This document shows positions 4,308-15,198 of a DNA stretch of 18,008 nt, piece by piece; the first letter of the stretch is position 1; the number at the start of each line of letters is the position of its first letter. The notes beneath the pieces are model-generated. The model saw only the letters and a list, made by a program, of their open reading frames with translations. It ran no database searches and was not told where the DNA came from. The translations under genes and the position numbers were made by a program. Origin of the DNA: Candidatus Sabulitectum sp. (GTDB lineage Bacteria; Fermentibacterota; Fermentibacteria; Fermentibacterales; Fermentibacteraceae); the NCBI GenBank assembly GCA_023145935.1, contig JAGLDB010000015.1, forward strand, positions 1-18,008. The letters are read 5' to 3'.

Positions 4308-4471
4308 TAGCTGTCTTTTATTGCCGATACGTAAGACTCGAATTTTCCAGTGATTTACGGGAACTTTTGAACCCCTTTCGTGTTCCCATGAATGTTGTTA
4401 GATTTCTACTTCGGTTTTCAATATATTTTTTTAGACGACGATTCTATTTTTCAAAAGAAAGGTTTGGTACG

Positions 4472-6478
4472 ATGTTGTTTTTGCAAGTTGCAATGGTTCT
4501 TATGTCTGTTCAGGCAACAGAACTTTCTTTCTCTATAGACCCTGCCGCAGTGGAGCTTACAACCTTCCGTGGTGAAGAGGTTCTTTATATTCCAGGTGGA
4601 GCTTCCCCATTTGTGGATGGAGAGCCAGGTCTTCCTGGAATGGGATACTCCATGGTTATTCCTCAGGGAACATATCTTGAGAGTGTTGAAGTGGAAGTAC
4701 TGTCAAGAATAGATCTTCCAGGTATTCACAATATCGCACCTGTTCTTTCCGTTCCACTGAATCAGCAGATTCCAGTGGTTATTCCTCATTCCGTCAGTTA
4801 TTCAAGAGGAGCATTTCCCTCCGTCTCAATTCACGATGTTAATACAGGCAACAAGACGGGTTTCAGAGTTGCTTCTTTCACATATGTTCCTTTCACATGG
4901 GATCCTGCAACGGGAATCATCTCTCTGGTAACCAGCGCAACACTTACCCCGGTAGTGGTACCAGCTACAGATGCTCCTGAGCTTGCCCTTTCGGATCTCC
5001 AGGTAAGAACAGCTATTTCAGCTCTTGAATCTGTTGTACAGAATCCGGAGATGCTTGAGGTTTATGCTCCAGAGATCGTCAGCGGTGTTGATGGAGCGCC
5101 ATGGGTTATCATTGCAGACGAAGCACTTCAGACAACTCTTCAGCCCTTGATCGATCTTCGTGCAACGACTCACGGTTCACAGTTTGTTACTACACAGTGG
5201 ATCTATGATAATTTCACAGGTCGTGATACCCAGGAAAAGATCAGAAATTACCTCATCAATGGTTATGAGAACCAGGGACTTGTGTATGCTCTTATAGTTG
5301 GTGATTTCGGTGAAACCACAAGAATTTCCAGCCTGCAGATAGGCGGTAATATTCTTAACGCAACTGCTGATCTATATTTCGCCGATCTCGATGGAACGTG
5401 GGACGGCGATAACGACAACAAATTCGGCGAACTGAGCGATGGACTTGACTATTACACAGACCTTTACGTTGGAAGATACAGCACAGATGTGCCTTCTCGT
5501 CTTGCTGTAATGGTTAACAGAACAGTTGCCTACGAGACCACAGCACCTTCTGGTGACTGGCAGACTACTGCTCTTCTGGCAGGTGCCCAACTTTGGCCCC
5601 CATATTCAGGAGCAAAAGTATGCGATTCTATTTCAGTAAGAATTCCTGCTTCCTGGACTGAATACAAACTGTACGAAACGGCTTCCGGCCACCCCAATAA
5701 CCAGATTGACATTCTGAATGATGGAGTTTCCTACTGTTCACCTAATGGACACGGATTCTATGCGGGAATCTACTGGCTGGAGCATCCACCCACGGACTTG
5801 ATTTCCGCAGGAAACTACACAGGGCTTACCAACGATGCTATTCCCCCTGTGTTCCATTCGATAGCTTGCCTTGCAGGCAGCATTCAGAATATTGCCTCTA
5901 TTGCAGAAAGACTCATGTTCAGGGCACAGGGTGGCGGAGTTGCAGTTATGTTCAACTCCGATAACGGATGGGGTTCTCCTCCAAACTTCGGTGCCAGCGA
6001 GTGGCTTGAGCTTTACTTCGCAGAAGTTCTTTTTGTTGATGAGCAGTATGAGATCGGTGTTACCCACGGTGTTTCCAAAGACGAGTTCAAGGCTAATGTA
6101 AGTGTTTCCATGCAGACATGGGTGCTTCAGGAGAACAACCTTCTTGGTGACCCTGCACTTCAGTTTATTGCCGGTCAGATGGGTATTGAAGAGGGAGAAG
6201 GAAGTCCTTCAGTTGCTGCACCTGCAATTTTTGCCCCAAGCCCTAACCCGGTAAGTGGTACATGCGCTGTGAACTTCACAATGCCGGCTTCAGGTACTGC
6301 TACCATTGCAGTTTATGATATCACAGGTAGAATTGCTGCAACGGTTCATCAGGGTATTCTTGGTGCAGGACAGGGAAGCCTCAGCTTTGACGCCTCCAGT
6401 CTTCCTTCCGGTTGTTACAGCCTTGTTATTAATTCAGAAACAGGATCTGCCTCCACACAGATGCTTGTTCTTCGCTAA
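4472..6478 (+). CDS. Gingipain-like cysteine peptidase (family C25) with C-terminal type A sorting domain, copy 1
   Basis: Predicted secreted cysteine peptidase of 668 residues. The ATG at 4472 follows AAAGG and gives a hydrophobic signal (MLFLQVAMVLMSVQA). The open frame extends to a TTG at 4367, but that extension is Arg/Phe-rich and absent from the tandem paralogue. After the signal comes a gingipain-type propeptide region (about 15-190; GGASPFVDGEPGLPGMGYS), then the peptidase domain beginning near PWVIIADEAL. Catalytic candidates are His427 in NGHGFYAG and Cys466 in HSIACLAGS, 39 residues apart and in the His-then-Cys order of family C25. The last ~80 residues (APSPNPVSG ... VYDITGR ... 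LPSGCYSLVI) are a Por/type IX-style beta-sandwich sorting domain. I infer export across the outer membrane. Cleavage specificity cannot be read. A tandem paralogue follows after a hairpin. Confidence 0.88.
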   Translation: MLFLQVAMVLMSVQATELSFSIDPAAVELTTFRGEEVLYIPGGASPFVDGEPGLPGMGYSMVIPQGTYLESVEVEVLSRIDLPGIHNIAPVLSVPLNQQIPVVIPHSVSYSRGAFPSVSIHDVNTGNKTGFRVASFTYVPFTWDPATGIISLVTSATLTPVVVPATDAPELALSDLQVRTAISALESVVQNPEMLEVYAPEIVSGVDGAPWVIIADEALQTTLQPLIDLRATTHGSQFVTTQWIYDNFTGRDTQEKIRNYLINGYENQGLVYALIVGDFGETTRISSLQIGGNILNATADLYFADLDGTWDGDNDNKFGELSDGLDYYTDLYVGRYSTDVPSRLAVMVNRTVAYETTAPSGDWQTTALLAGAQLWPPYSGAKVCDSISVRIPASWTEYKLYETASGHPNNQIDILNDGVSYCSPNGHGFYAGIYWLEHPPTDLISAGNYTGLTNDAIPPVFHSIACLAGSIQNIASIAERLMFRAQGGGVAVMFNSDNGWGSPPNFGASEWLELYFAEVLFVDEQYEIGVTHGVSKDEFKANVSVSMQTWVLQENNLLGDPALQFIAGQMGIEEGEGSPSVAAPAIFAPSPNPVSGTCAVNFTMPASGTATIAVYDITGRIAATVHQGILGAGQGSLSFDASSLPSGCYSLVINSETGSASTQMLVLR

Positions 6479-6508
6479 ATCGTATAAAGCGGTAAAATAG
6501 TGGAATAA

Positions 6509-6538
6509 TAAGGCCTCCCGAGAAATCGGGAGGCCTTA
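6509..6538 (+). terminator. Strong hairpin between the two C25 peptidase genes
   Basis: AAGGCCTCCCGA - GAAA - TCGGGAGGCCTT: a perfect 12-bp stem (13 with the flanking T-A pair) capped by a GAAA tetraloop, 30 bp after the stop of the first peptidase. It is not followed by a good T-run, so it may be a partial terminator or an mRNA-stabilising 3' hairpin rather than a full stop. Confidence 0.6.
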
Positions 6539-6586
6539 CTCAATGAATTTGGTTTTCACAAAGGTTTGCTGGAGAGAGAGGATCAT

Positions 6587-8608
6587 ATGACTTTATTCAT
6601 CAGTATATTGTTGGCTTTCGTTTCTGTTCATTCAGAAGACCTGTACTTTTTCATTGAGCCCGAAGATGTAAGTTTCATTCCATTTCGTGGTGAAGAAAGT
6701 GTTTACATCCCCGGAGGGGCATCCCCGTTTGCCGAAGGAGAGCCAGGTCTTCCGGGAATAGGATATTCCATGGTTATTCCCCAGGGAACATATCTTGAGA
6801 GTATTCAGGTAGAGGTGCTTTCGGAGGTGGATCTTCCCGGGATCATTAGTGTTGCTCCTGTTATTACGGTTCCTCTGAACCAGCCGATTCCGGCTTATAT
6901 TCCACATTCTGTGAGCTATTCACTTGGAGCATTTCCGTTAGATGCAGTTCAGGATATCAGCACAGGTAACAAAACAGGTTTCAGGATAGCTTCCTTTTCT
7001 TATGTTCCATTCGTCTGGAATCCCCTTACAGGAAAGCTTTCGCTTGTTATCAGTGCCAGACTTACACCGGTAATGGCTTCAGCCACAGATGTACAACAGC
7101 ATACACTCTCCGAAACTCAGTTGAGAACAGCGATTTCTGCTCTTGGGTCTGTTGTTCAGAACCCTGAAATGCTTGAAACATATGCCCCTGAAGTTACTGA
7201 TGTTGTTGATGGTGTCCCCTGGGTTGTAATTGCAGACTCAGTACATGAATCAACCATTCAGCCACTCGTTGACCTGAGAGCAGTGACACATGGATCAGCT
7301 TTCGTCTCAACCCAGTGGATCTATGATAACTATGATGGTTACGATACCCAGGAGCAGATCAGGAATTACCTGATTGATGCTTACCAGAATCAGGGCCTGG
7401 TCTATGCCCTGATTGTGGGAGATTATGGTGAGACTACTAGGATTTCCAGCCTGAGCATTGGTGGAAATATCATGGATACTGTAGCAGACCTCTATTTCAG
7501 CGATCTGGATGGCAGTTGGGATCTTGATGGAGATCACCTGTATGGTGAGTACAGCGATGGCCTTGATTACTACTCGGACATTTATGTGGGAAGATTCAGC
7601 ACGGATGTTCCTGCCCGCCTTGTAACCATGGTGAGCAAGGCTGTTGCATACGAGACAGATCCACTGCCAGGCAGCTGGCAGACCACTGCCCTGCTTGCCG
7701 GAGCCGGCTTGTGGGTGGATGACCCTCCGGGGTACTGGGGATCATTCGTCTGTGATTCTATTGATTCCAGAATACCGGAGTCCTGGACAGTGCATAAATT
7801 GTATGAAGACTATTCTTCTCACCCTAACAATCAGATCGATCTGTATAATCAGGGTGTTTCATACAGCAGTCTTAATGGACACGGGAATCCAGGGGGCGTG
7901 TACTGGTATTTTGATCCTCCCACAGAAATTGTTACAACATCAAACTACTACGATATGAGTAACTTCGGGATGCCTGTTGTCTTTCACTCTATGGCCTGCC
8001 ACCCGGGACATCTTCAGAATATTGCCTGCATTGCAGAGCGGTTGATGATCTGGCCTGACGGCGGTGCGGTTGCTGTAATGTTCAACTCGCACTGGGGTAT
8101 TGGTACTCCCCCTGCATTTGGCCCCAGTGAATGGCTTGAGCTGTTTTTCGCAGAGGTTCTTTTACAGGATGAGCAGTATGAGATAGGGGTTGCGCACGCG
8201 GTTTCCAAGGATGAATTCAAGGCAAATGTAAGTATTGCCATGCAGAACTGGATTCTTCAGGAAAACAATCTTCTGGGAGATCCTGCCCTAAGATTTATTG
8301 CAGGGCAGATGGGAATTGAAGAGGGCGAAGGGAACTCTTCAGTTGCCAGTCCCATAATTCATTTCCTTAGCCCCAACCCGGTAAGCGGTACTTGTGCAGT
8401 GAGCTTTACAATGCCAGCTACCAGTATGGCTACTATTGCTGTTTATGATGTGTCCGGTAGAATTGTTGCAACAGTACATCAGGGTATTCTTGGTGCAGGG
8501 CAGGGAAGCCTCAGCTTTGATGCCTCCAGTCTGCCTTCAGGGTGTTACAGTGTTGTGATAAATTCAGAAACAGGTTCTGCTTTTTCACAGATGCTTGTTC
8601 TCCACTGA
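6587..8608 (+). CDS. Gingipain-like cysteine peptidase (family C25) with C-terminal type A sorting domain, copy 2
   Basis: Tandem paralogue of the preceding gene, 673 residues, co-linear through propeptide, catalytic domain and sorting domain. The ATG at 6587 is preceded by GAGAGAGGA; a TTG at 6566 also opens the frame but lacks a spaced ribosome site. Signal MTLFISILLAFVSVHS is short and has no basic n-region. Catalytic candidates are His432 in NGHGNPGG and Cys471 in HSMACHPGH, again 39 residues apart; the residues after each differ from copy 1 (GNPGGVYW versus GFYAGIYW, HPGHLQN versus LAGSIQN), so specificity may have diverged. The C-terminal domain (NPVSGTCAVSF ... VYDVSGR ... GCYSVVIN) is nearly identical to copy 1. 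Export by a type IX-like system is inferred. No obvious T-tailed terminator follows in 8609-8695, where only a weak 5-bp hairpin is seen. Confidence 0.87.
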   Translation: MTLFISILLAFVSVHSEDLYFFIEPEDVSFIPFRGEESVYIPGGASPFAEGEPGLPGIGYSMVIPQGTYLESIQVEVLSEVDLPGIISVAPVITVPLNQPIPAYIPHSVSYSLGAFPLDAVQDISTGNKTGFRIASFSYVPFVWNPLTGKLSLVISARLTPVMASATDVQQHTLSETQLRTAISALGSVVQNPEMLETYAPEVTDVVDGVPWVVIADSVHESTIQPLVDLRAVTHGSAFVSTQWIYDNYDGYDTQEQIRNYLIDAYQNQGLVYALIVGDYGETTRISSLSIGGNIMDTVADLYFSDLDGSWDLDGDHLYGEYSDGLDYYSDIYVGRFSTDVPARLVTMVSKAVAYETDPLPGSWQTTALLAGAGLWVDDPPGYWGSFVCDSIDSRIPESWTVHKLYEDYSSHPNNQIDLYNQGVSYSSLNGHGNPGGVYWYFDPPTEIVTTSNYYDMSNFGMPVVFHSMACHPGHLQNIACIAERLMIWPDGGAVAVMFNSHWGIGTPPAFGPSEWLELFFAEVLLQDEQYEIGVAHAVSKDEFKANVSIAMQNWILQENNLLGDPALRFIAGQMGIEEGEGNSSVASPIIHFLSPNPVSGTCAVSFTMPATSMATIAVYDVSGRIVATVHQGILGAGQGSLSFDASSLPSGCYSVVINSETGSAFSQMLVLH

Positions 8609-12775: not shown

Positions 12776-12836
12776 ATGAAATGAAGAGGGATTGTACCAG
12801 TGTTGTAATCCTGTTGTTTACGAAAGGATCAGTATA

Positions 12837-13448
12837 ATGAAAAAAGCGATGTTTGTCCTTCTAGTAGCAGTACCTGTACTGCTTGCTGCAAGTGTAGAAA
12901 TTGGATCTTCACAGTTCATGAGCACTAAACCCTTCTGCGGTGATTGAACCCTGACTCTTCGCTATCAGGTGATAGCACAGTCAACTGAATTCTCAGGACC
13001 TATGATCATCAGTTCTCTTACATTCTTTTTAGCTCCGGGAGCAGTAGAGGATCATGTAACCTTTGATGAATACTATGTTCATCTGGGTTACTGTTCATCT
13101 AATGAACTCAGCGCCACTTATAACGATAATTATGTGAATGGCTGGAGGTATCCTGTTCTTGAGAGCACAAGTCCAATTACTTTCCTGGAGACGGATCCTA
13201 CAATTTATTTTGATACACCATTTTTCTATGACCCGGCCAACGGCAACCTCGTTTTCGAGATCGCGTGGCCGAATGGTGAAGATGAGATATACACATACAC
13301 TTCAGTTTCTTCTTCTAGCACTTGTGTATATGGAGACTACTATTTGTCTGCGGGAGATCAATATACAGAATTGCCTCATGTGCTTATAAATGGCGATCTG
13401 GCTCTGGCCAATACGACATTTGCCGGCATAAAGGCTTCATTCCAGTAA
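12837..13448 (+). CDS. Secreted protein with one in-frame UGA: possible CxxU selenoprotein, else a nonsense-interrupted gene
   Basis: An ATG at 12837, preceded by AAAGGA, opens a frame of 203 residues ending with TAA at 13448, broken only by TGA at 12945-12947 (codon 37). Residues 1-18 (MKKAMFVLLVAVPVLLAA) are a clear Sec signal. The UGA lies in PFC-GD-UGA-TLTLRYQ, so Cys34 and codon 37 would form CxxU. A SECIS-like hairpin follows (12961-12976). The rest resembles secreted beta-sandwich proteins of FCB-type bacteria (SSLTFFLAPG, WRYPVLESTSPITF, NGNLVFEIAW), function unknown; two further Cys occur (YCSSN, STCVYG). No ribosome site lies just after the UGA, so restart is unlikely. TGA is a true stop elsewhere in the window and TGG encodes Trp inside this gene, so a changed code is unlikely. 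Alternatives are selenocysteine, a TGG-to-TGA mutation (Trp would fit here) or a sequence error. It is 22 bp upstream of, and probably co-transcribed with, the Fe-S protein gene. Confidence 0.62.
12961..12976 (+). promoter_or_regulatory. Candidate bacterial SECIS hairpin downstream of the in-frame UGA
   Basis: GCTATC - AGGT - GATAGC: a perfect 6-bp stem with an AGGU loop closed by a C-G pair. Counting the U of UGA as 1, the loop G-U is at 25-26. In E. coli fdhF the loop begins AGGU, is also closed by C-G, and the key G-U is at 23-24. The hairpin lies inside the coding frame, as bacterial SECIS elements do. The fdhF bulged U is not obvious here. Confidence 0.45.
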
Positions 13449-13470: not shown

Positions 13471-15198
13471 GTGAAACAACTTGTAATTCTTCTTATTGCG
13501 GTATCTGCCCTTTATGCACAGTGCCCTCTCGGTTTTTCTCCGGATGAGGCGTGCACTGCTGAAGCCCCTTCATGTGTTTTGTATTCCGACGAAAATGGCG
13601 ATTCTCTTTGTGACAACGCAGGACCACAGGAACAGTCTCAGCCTCCTGCAGAGGAACCGGAGGAAGTAACGGAGCCTGATTCTGAACCAGAACCGGAACT
13701 GGAGACCGAGCCGGAATTAGAACCGGAGGTTGTGGAGGAAGAAGAGCCGGCATCGGATCTATTCTGTCCACTGAACCTTGTTCCTCAGGAGGCCTGTCCT
13801 CAGGAAAATGCCAGATGTACTTTCTACACAGATTCAAACGGGGACGGCTTGTGCGACAATCCGGGACCTCAAACTGTTTCATCTGTTGAGGAGACAGAGC
13901 AGGTTGAGGAGGAATATACCGAGCCACCGTTGGATATTGAGGAGCCGGAAGAAGAAGTTCCGGATGTTGCAGTTGAAGAGGACATTCCTTCTGATTCTCT
14001 TGATACGGATGCCACAGCCATTGATTGCCCTCTGGGATTCTCTGTAGAGGAAGCCTGTGAAGCAGACCAACCTCTCTGCACTCTATTTCGCGATTCAGAT
14101 CTGAATGGGGTGTGTGATAACGGCATTGCAACCACAGAGGATAATGTCGATCCGGGGGAAATAGAAACACAAACTGCCAATAGAGGAAATCGTTGTCCTC
14201 TTGGATACAATGCGAGTCAGGCATGTGATGTAGATAATCCTGACTGCACCTTTTACATAGATGCAGACGAAAATGATCTGTGTGACAATCCTGGCCCCGG
14301 TTCAGGCCAGGGACAGGGCTGTCCCGAGTCAGAGGGTGGTGCAGGGCAGGAACGAGACATAGTAATAGGTTGTCCCCTGGGGCTTCCCCTTGCTGCTGCA
14401 TGTCCGGATTCACTTGCTCTCTGTCCTCACTGGTATGGTGTTTCGTCCCACACCACTTGTTCAAACCCTGCAGGTGGTTCACGAAGAACAGGCATAATAT
14501 TTCTTACACTGGGAGTTCTGCTTCCTGTTTCAACCTGGTTGTCCCGCAAGTTCTATGGAAGACGACTTAAGGACAGGCTTAGAAGGAATTCGGCCCACCA
14601 CATAATAAGAGGTGTGTCACTGATGATTCTGGGTTTTGGTGTTCAGGGATGTTTCTGTCCCCTTGGAACATTCCAGTATGCTTTTACTTCAGGAGGACTG
14701 GCATTTCTAGGCTTAAGTGGAATTATGATCTTTCTTCTGCCACTTCTGTTCAGTGCTTTTTTCGGCAGGGTTTTCTGCGGGTGGGTATGCCCATTTGGAG
14801 CGTTGCAGGAATTTCTTTACCGCATTCATGTTCCAGGCAGATTCTCGTTGCCAAGCAAGGTTCACAGTAAGCTCAAACATCTCAGTACGATGATACTTTT
14901 TGCACTGATCTCCGTAATTCTGCTCAACCGATTTGGTGTGATATCTCTGGGATGGCCTGCTCCATTTTGTGTAATAGATCCATTCCATACGATCTTTACA
15001 CTGTTTCTTTCCGGTAGCCTGATAGTGGCAGGAATAACAATTGTTCTTTCTATATTCATAAGAAGATTTTTCTGCAAATATCTTTGTTTCTACGGTGCGG
15101 CACAGGCCATTCTTGCTAAACTGACACTCTGGAACAGGATAAAGGGAATCAGAAGAGAGCAGCCGGAACCGGACTCAGACGAAGAGTTCGACAAATAG
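13471..15198 (+). CDS. Membrane 4Fe-4S protein (NapH/NosR/CcoG-like) with five Cys-rich external repeats
   Basis: A 575-residue predicted electron-transfer membrane protein. The GTG at 13471 follows a G-rich ribosome site, and residues 1-16 (MKQLVILLIAVSALYA) are a signal peptide. Residues 18-335 hold five repeats starting at Cys18, 99, 186, 242 and 301, each with exact spacing C-x9-C-x6-C-x11-C and starting CPLG or CPLN. The first four have an Asp/Asn loop before the last Cys (DENGDSLCDN, DSNGDGLCDN), like a calcium-binding loop. Acidic Pro/Glu-rich linkers separate repeats 1-3. About five membrane helices follow (near 341-358, 379-396, 409-432, 473-491, 507-531), with CGWVCPFGALQE (Cys436, Cys440) and CKYLCFYGAAQ (Cys535, Cys539), the paired cysteine motifs of the Fer4_5/NapH group, plus GCFCPLG (Cys394, Cys396). 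The second motif has Phe instead of the usual Pro. Periplasmic redox transfer is inferred; the partner is unknown. Confidence 0.82.
   Translation: MKQLVILLIAVSALYAQCPLGFSPDEACTAEAPSCVLYSDENGDSLCDNAGPQEQSQPPAEEPEEVTEPDSEPEPELETEPELEPEVVEEEEPASDLFCPLNLVPQEACPQENARCTFYTDSNGDGLCDNPGPQTVSSVEETEQVEEEYTEPPLDIEEPEEEVPDVAVEEDIPSDSLDTDATAIDCPLGFSVEEACEADQPLCTLFRDSDLNGVCDNGIATTEDNVDPGEIETQTANRGNRCPLGYNASQACDVDNPDCTFYIDADENDLCDNPGPGSGQGQGCPESEGGAGQERDIVIGCPLGLPLAAACPDSLALCPHWYGVSSHTTCSNPAGGSRRTGIIFLTLGVLLPVSTWLSRKFYGRRLKDRLRRNSAHHIIRGVSLMILGFGVQGCFCPLGTFQYAFTSGGLAFLGLSGIMIFLLPLLFSAFFGRVFCGWVCPFGALQEFLYRIHVPGRFSLPSKVHSKLKHLSTMILFALISVILLNRFGVISLGWPAPFCVIDPFHTIFTLFLSGSLIVAGITIVLSIFIRRFFCKYLCFYGAAQAILAKLTLWNRIKGIRREQPEPDSDEEFDK

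Follow-up and report, generated by a model that had tools for sequence, protein, structure and literature searches.

A family of probable exported selenoproteins with an in-frame UGA and a SECIS-like hairpin in Candidatus Fermentibacterota

Background

The decoding of UGA as selenocysteine (Sec) by means of SelB and a SECIS hairpin is already known. In E. coli fdhF, the in-frame UGA is followed closely by a hairpin whose GGU-type apical loop begins 17 nt after the UGA, and the stem of this SECIS bears a bulge. The gene family that we describe here has the same arrangement, with an apical loop of the GGU type 19 or 22 nt behind an in-frame UGA, but its stem of 6 to 8 bp has no bulge. The SelD of the same lineage also resembles the family in combining a UGA with a hairpin that has a GGU-type loop; Cys forms exist in the family. 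Profile searches found no match of the family to either formate dehydrogenase or SelD, from which it differs as well in being probably exported.

Most characterised selenoproteins are thioredoxin-like, according to the available sections of a 2026 inventory of 119 families (PMC13188914), and the CxxU proteins in its Table 1 (SelW-like) share with our family a CxxU motif containing Sec and a probable redox role. Unlike them, the family has an all-beta predicted model, which would be unusual among selenoproteins, and matches no NCBIfam or Pfam entry above the cut-off. The PEP-CTERM protein P0066 shows a weak profile match (E 1.2e-6) and similar RSQSLYQ and DTPFFYNPA stretches, but it has no Cys at the site and carries a different C-terminal sorting signal (PF07589). 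The YedE/YedF/SelD selenium-utilisation clusters treated in PMC5322559 house one clade of the family, while the clade discussed most fully below is located elsewhere. The available sections of that paper consider selenium export as well as transport in general for YedE, and we found in them no mention of an exported selenoprotein.

When compared by name and motif, none of the Table 1 entries of the inventory (PMC13188914) matched the family at the level of description, and in the open-access literature accessible to us we found no report of selenoproteins or selenocysteine in Fermentibacterota, Fermentibacteria, Fermentibacter, Sabulitectum or, judging by titles and the openings of abstracts, Hyd24-12. 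According to PMC13188914, a groundwater study (its reference 66) contains candidate selenoproteins, among which such genes could be present. Both the protein family and its expansion thus appear to be new, being set apart from the inventory families by description and from Pfam and NCBIfam families by profile. The family seems to have escaped notice because gene-calling programs place the start codon downstream of the UGA, so that the signal peptide is lost along with the site of Sec. It would add to the known selenoproteins a probably exported, all-beta family with up to 10 matches in one genome.

Results and discussion

The gene and its reading frame

The window is the whole stretch of DNA that was analysed, 18,008 nt from Candidatus Sabulitectum, a genus of the phylum Candidatus Fermentibacterota. 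An initial annotation of the window had described a frame from 12837 to 13448 that is interrupted only by a TGA at codon 37, within a CxxU motif, and had suggested a new family of secreted selenoproteins. The frame proved to be as described, with a terminal TAA, and the Cys34-Gly-Asp-UGA motif is present in the sequence. The features of the locus are as follows.

12823..12828, + strand: likely ribosome-binding site AAAGGA, 8 nt upstream of the ATG, identified by reading the sequence
12837..13448, + strand: putative selenoprotein gene, 203 codons with UGA as codon 37 and TAA as stop, alignable over its full length with 11 loci and one Cys homologue
12837..12890, + strand: likely signal peptide MKKAMFVLLVAVPVLLAA, judged from the sequence and from conservation of the stretch in frame
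12936..12947, + strand: CxxU motif Cys34-Gly-Asp-Sec37, with the UGA at 12945-12947, from the sequence and comparison with homologues
12961..12976, + strand: SECIS-like hairpin GCTATC-AGGT-GATAGC, 13 nt after the UGA, assessed by covariation, background frequency and Cys forms
13471..15198, + strand: neighbour gene, 22 nt downstream, encoding Cys-rich repeats and a NapH/NosR-like membrane Fe-S part (Fer4_5)

Translated in this frame, the likely signal peptide is followed by SSQFMSTKPFCGD, the UGA, TLTLRYQVIAQ and the remainder of the protein up to the TAA. Because of this signal-like N-terminus, the protein is probably exported. Runs resembling AAAGG also occur upstream in most of the 11 loci.

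Conservation of the UGA and replacement by cysteine

All 11 full-length loci, which come from ten genomes and encode proteins 59-95% identical to that of the window, have TGA at codon 37. The closest relative found, L002, belongs to a bin that is itself named Candidatus Sabulitectum sp. and is 95% identical. For a larger set of homologues, 100 further genome regions were added to the loci found initially. Of the resulting 151 ORF matches, we set aside one duplicate and 27 matches that spanned fewer than 150 aa, which left 123 unique homologues matching over at least roughly 150 aa. The UGA motif was present in 14 of those 27 (several being locus-edge copies that were already counted), a TGA elsewhere in 2 (the short fragments L153 and L162), and neither in 11, where the site was not covered.

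Exactly one in-frame UGA, always in the N-terminal motif, was found in 108 of the 123 homologues. Another 10, the genome Cys forms, have Cys at that position, and in the remaining 5 the N-terminus is not intact owing to contig ends or apparent frameshifts. The question raised at the outset, whether homologues would have Cys, UGA or Trp at the site, is thereby answered: UGA or Cys, with Trp in none of the 123 and no other sense replacement. Apparent frameshifts precede the site in L161 and L129, the latter still showing GCU.

The exchange of UGA for Cys is found in two clades that lie apart in the tree. Besides the ten genome Cys forms, Cys takes the place of Sec in two full-length public sequences, P0004 (58% identical) and P0032 (54% identical). 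Their motif reads PFGAVC, with Gly where the window has Cys34, and their clade differs from that of the ten genome forms. P0004 was the only full-length sequence among the 30 relatives returned by a search of public proteins, the other 29 being proteins of 121-162 aa whose starts lie after the UGA; P0032 was found separately by a profile search. The region before the UGA behaves as a gene: across all pairs of 12 sequences, codons 2-36 contain 802 synonymous against 299 non-synonymous single-base codon differences, and purifying selection is seen on both sides of the UGA. On this comparative evidence, codons 2-36 evolve as coding sequence, and the UGA at codon 37 is kept as a sense codon that is exchanged with Cys only.

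Family size and motif variants

A profile search with the initial alignment found matches in 34 of the 36 genomes searched from the bacterial family. A broader alignment extended the search to the phylum, where 41 of 42 genomes gave matches, in one case a single weak one (E 2.7e-5); counting fragments, the matches summed to 205, with 0-10 per genome. The homologue counts given above refer to genomes other than the six added by the phylum search (G037-G042). Some of the matches in these six have no TGA, and for locus L178 (G042) the open frames were listed.

Among the 108 UGA homologues, CxxU was the commonest motif (71), followed by CU (19), CxU (11) and GIGU (3), with SxxU, DSU, UxC and UC found once each. 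In seven members (L095, L098, L100, L108, L127, L131 and L156) none of the three residues before the Sec is a Cys, the motif being GIGU, SxxU, DSU, UC or UxC instead, which points to Sec, rather than the pair, as the constant feature.

The hairpin after the UGA

The initial annotation had placed a stem GCTATC/GATAGC with an AGGT loop 13 nt past the UGA, and this is what we found at 12961-12976. Its further observation that the loop G-U lies at positions 25-26 counted from the U, as against 23-24 in E. coli fdhF, agrees with the fdhF sequence (L192), in which AGGT follows after 17 nt. Each TGA in the window, on either strand, was checked for such a hairpin at such a spacing, and the scan gave one match, codon 37. 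The same scan of the 11 loci of relatives gave 17 matches, 16 of them in family members. A stem of at least 6 bp is present in 106 of the 109 UGA members (window included), as opposed to 4.8% of 17,244 other codon positions in the same genes, leaving 3 of the 109 without a 6-bp stem. The loop is AGGT in 86 of the 109 and AGTT in 12, and it begins 19 nt (78 members) or 22 nt (29 members) after the UGA, so that 107 of the 109 fall into one of two spacing classes.

In the Cys forms the hairpin is missing: the best stem at the site was 1-2 bp in all ten. The protein motif of this segment is nevertheless retained, as R-Y-Q in nine of the ten and T-Y-Q in the other. Most UGA members write R-Y-Q as CGC-TAY-CAG, whereas the Cys forms use other codons, including AGR for the Arg in nine. 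Constraint on the nucleotide sequence is also visible among the 12 closest orthologues, where third-position entropy is 0.43 bits in hairpin codons 42-47 against 1.16-1.39 bits in other blocks.

We measured covariation in 66 of the 67 distinct hairpins, omitting L156, in which the hairpin lies in another register. In this alignment 99.5% of 396 cells were paired and five of the six pairs had changed on both sides. Double-change cells numbered 46, where shuffled alignments gave 9.0. On four of five measures the real alignment scored above every one of 500 shuffles, and on the fifth, pair types, 3 shuffles reached its value, although the relatedness of the sequences inflates these shuffle comparisons. 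For this reason, the Cys forms count for more than the covariation. When the partners were slid by one or two bases, 22-31% of cells remained paired, with 22 double-change cells at +2; a slide of -3 left 90.4% of cells paired and no double change. Taken with the Cys forms, the comparison establishes a covarying AGGU-loop hairpin that accompanies the UGA and is missing where the codon is Cys; judged from sequence, this hairpin is a SECIS.

We built a covariance model (R1) from hairpins with the 19-nt spacing, using 44 of the 48. A search of four whole genomes with it gave 22 matches at E values up to 0.05, all within family members, the model having been trained partly on the same four genomes and 150 of the 681-744 candidates per genome having been scored. 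The model misses some members, since the same genomes contain 31 family matches. In Rfam, the neighbouring tRNA-Asp was the sole match at the gathering score, and a loose threshold added three chance-level matches around the UGA. The clade of L156, L157 and L159, whose motif is TNRPF[SC]G[ST]U, differs in the register of the hairpin after the UGA, which in L159 reads GGTACCAG-GTT-CTGGTACT. The contrast between clades that have Sec and the hairpin and clades that have Cys and no hairpin amounts to a natural experiment on the requirements of a SECIS.

Selenocysteine machinery in related genomes

We judged the sel genes from the genomes of relatives rather than from the window's own. In the ten genomes that carry the 11 loci, selB, selA and tRNA-Sec were each above the cut-off in nine, and selD in eight. 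The gaps are a selB fragment only and no selD in G009, no tRNA-Sec over the cut-off in G002, a split selA in G004 and no selD over the cut-off in G008. That they differ between genomes is as expected, because these metagenome bins are incomplete. Across the phylum, selB was above the cut-off in 35 of 42 genomes. In 14 control genomes, selB, tRNA-Sec and selD gave a weak signal in all and passed in 2, 5 and 2, respectively, while selA gave a weak signal in 4 and passed in 1; such weak signals show that the cut-offs matter.

SelD provides a comparison within the same lineage. Every one of the 13 SelD matches over the cut-off holds one TGA, and in all 11 sequences read (L180-L187 and L189-L191) this TGA is followed by a hairpin whose apex is GGU or GGC, from which it follows that the SelB of these cells probably already serves such loops. 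Five genomes (G001, G005, G006, G007 and G010) have two SelD copies over the cut-off, both with the TGA.

Alternative explanations

The conserved UGA and its exchange with Cys, the hairpin and the sel genes of relatives all support the suggestion of a selenoprotein, and the gene belongs to a many-copy family with matches in 41 of 42 phylum genomes. We consider it very probable that the gene encodes a probably exported selenoprotein in which UGA37 is decoded as Sec; SelB and Sec-tRNA would insert it, as the comparison and the sel genes of close relatives suggest. A TGG-to-TGA nonsense mutation or a sequencing error, making the gene a pseudogene or an artefact, might be considered from a single sequence, in which Trp would suit the position, and from the 29 of 30 public proteins that begin after the UGA. 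Such an origin is exceedingly improbable given a UGA shared by loci from ten assemblies and by 108 of 123 homologues, the lack of Trp in any of them and the selection acting on either side. A reassignment of UGA throughout the lineage, for example to Trp or Gly, would account for in-frame UGA being common among family members, but the initial annotation had already pointed to TGA stops in neighbouring genes and to TGG within the gene itself. Our counts bear this out: TGA ends 6 of the 12 window genes checked, and the gene has 2 TGG codons. The stop codons of the 123 homologues are TAA in 45, TAG in 43 and TGA in 34, with one lost at a contig end. As exchange is with Cys only, and selA, selB and tRNA-Sec are found in relatives, we regard reassignment as having a negligible chance of being correct.

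The UGA could also be a true stop, passed by near-cognate readthrough or followed by re-initiation, giving a short leader and a protein from the GTG at 12969, without selenocysteine. Public annotation does pick downstream starts of this kind, and readthrough could be favoured by a hairpin located behind the stop. However, neither version explains the exchange with Cys in two clades, the loss of the hairpin in Cys forms, the CxxU, CxU and CU motifs or the sel genes, and the GTG overlaps the hairpin loop; we think this account very improbable. A different kind of alternative accepts the selenoprotein but has its Sec bind metal or selenium, or form covalent cross-links on the cell surface, instead of transferring electrons. 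The many paralogues per genome, a predicted beta-sandwich whose structural look-alikes are of lectin-like and carbohydrate-esterase type, the CU and CxU motifs and the location of one clade in selenium clusters are in its favour. Against it stand the predominance of CxxU (71 of 108) and the Fe-S protein of electron-transfer type that follows the gene in every locus of the window clade. A binding or cross-linking role is a serious possibility, if somewhat short of an even one.

Fold and possible function

A search of 83 members against Pfam at E 0.01 returned no families, and 10 members searched against NCBIfam gave four matches in two members, all far below the curated cut-off. The predicted structure (mean pLDDT 92.4) is all-beta, with helices confined to the signal region, a stretch of 4 residues and the C-terminus. 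Structure comparison found beta-sandwich look-alikes of lectin-like and carbohydrate-esterase type, and the model suggests a beta-sandwich, jelly-roll-like domain. A thioredoxin fold around the CxxU was rejected, the predicted model being all-beta beside these few helices; no thioredoxin-fold proteins were among the structural matches listed, an absence that proves nothing.

In the model, the Cys-Gly-Asp-Sec pair would sit on a loop before a strand of the secreted domain. Because of the CxxU motif and the Fe-S neighbour, we give about an even chance to an extracytoplasmic selenol/thiol redox protein, and the gene clusters suggest selenium handling for part of the family; we infer both roles from the motif and the neighbourhood. 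Proteins of the window clade may pass electrons to or from the Cys-rich NapH/NosR-like membrane protein whose gene comes next, and those of the selD-yedF-yedE clusters may act in selenium capture, reduction or export. More tentatively, the family could form an exported, many-copy, jelly-roll-like selenoprotein system with CxxU, CxU, CU and UC variants, working at the cell surface in selenium capture, extracellular electron transfer or both, coupled to YedE/YedF or to a Cys-rich Fe-S conduit.

Gene neighbourhood

A homologue of the gene at 13471-15198 follows the selenoprotein gene in all 11 loci, and L002 has the same gene order as the window on both sides. The Cys-rich part of this neighbour consists of a repeat unit, CPLGF..C..C..Y.D..GD.LCDN, ahead of the Fe-S part, and the repeats align unevenly among relatives. 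In the wider family, 108 members have at least 330 nt of downstream sequence, and in 29 of these we detected the Fe-S neighbour no more than 900 nt away, many of the remaining members having only about 400 nt; another family gene lies between in 5 of the 29. A separate clade of 7 members, 6 of which were fetched, adjoins YedF in all 6, YedE in 4 and SelD in 4, and offers a handle on the movement of selenium across the bacterial envelope. No single functional theme was found among the neighbours of other clades.

Several observations concern individual loci. Two CxU-clade genes (L221 and L222, with the motif PFCHUN) share the same gene order, near genes that on inspection of the sequence are putative sodium-pumping decarboxylase genes. 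Beside one Cys form, at 2161-3195 of L051, lies a gene for an Omp28-related protein with a weak match, below the cut-off, to the Omp28 selenoprotein model. The window itself contains a tandem pair of related genes at 4367-8608, the second of which matches gingipain-type (C25) peptidases with a T9SS-like sorting tail, and two copies are also present in L002 and L008.
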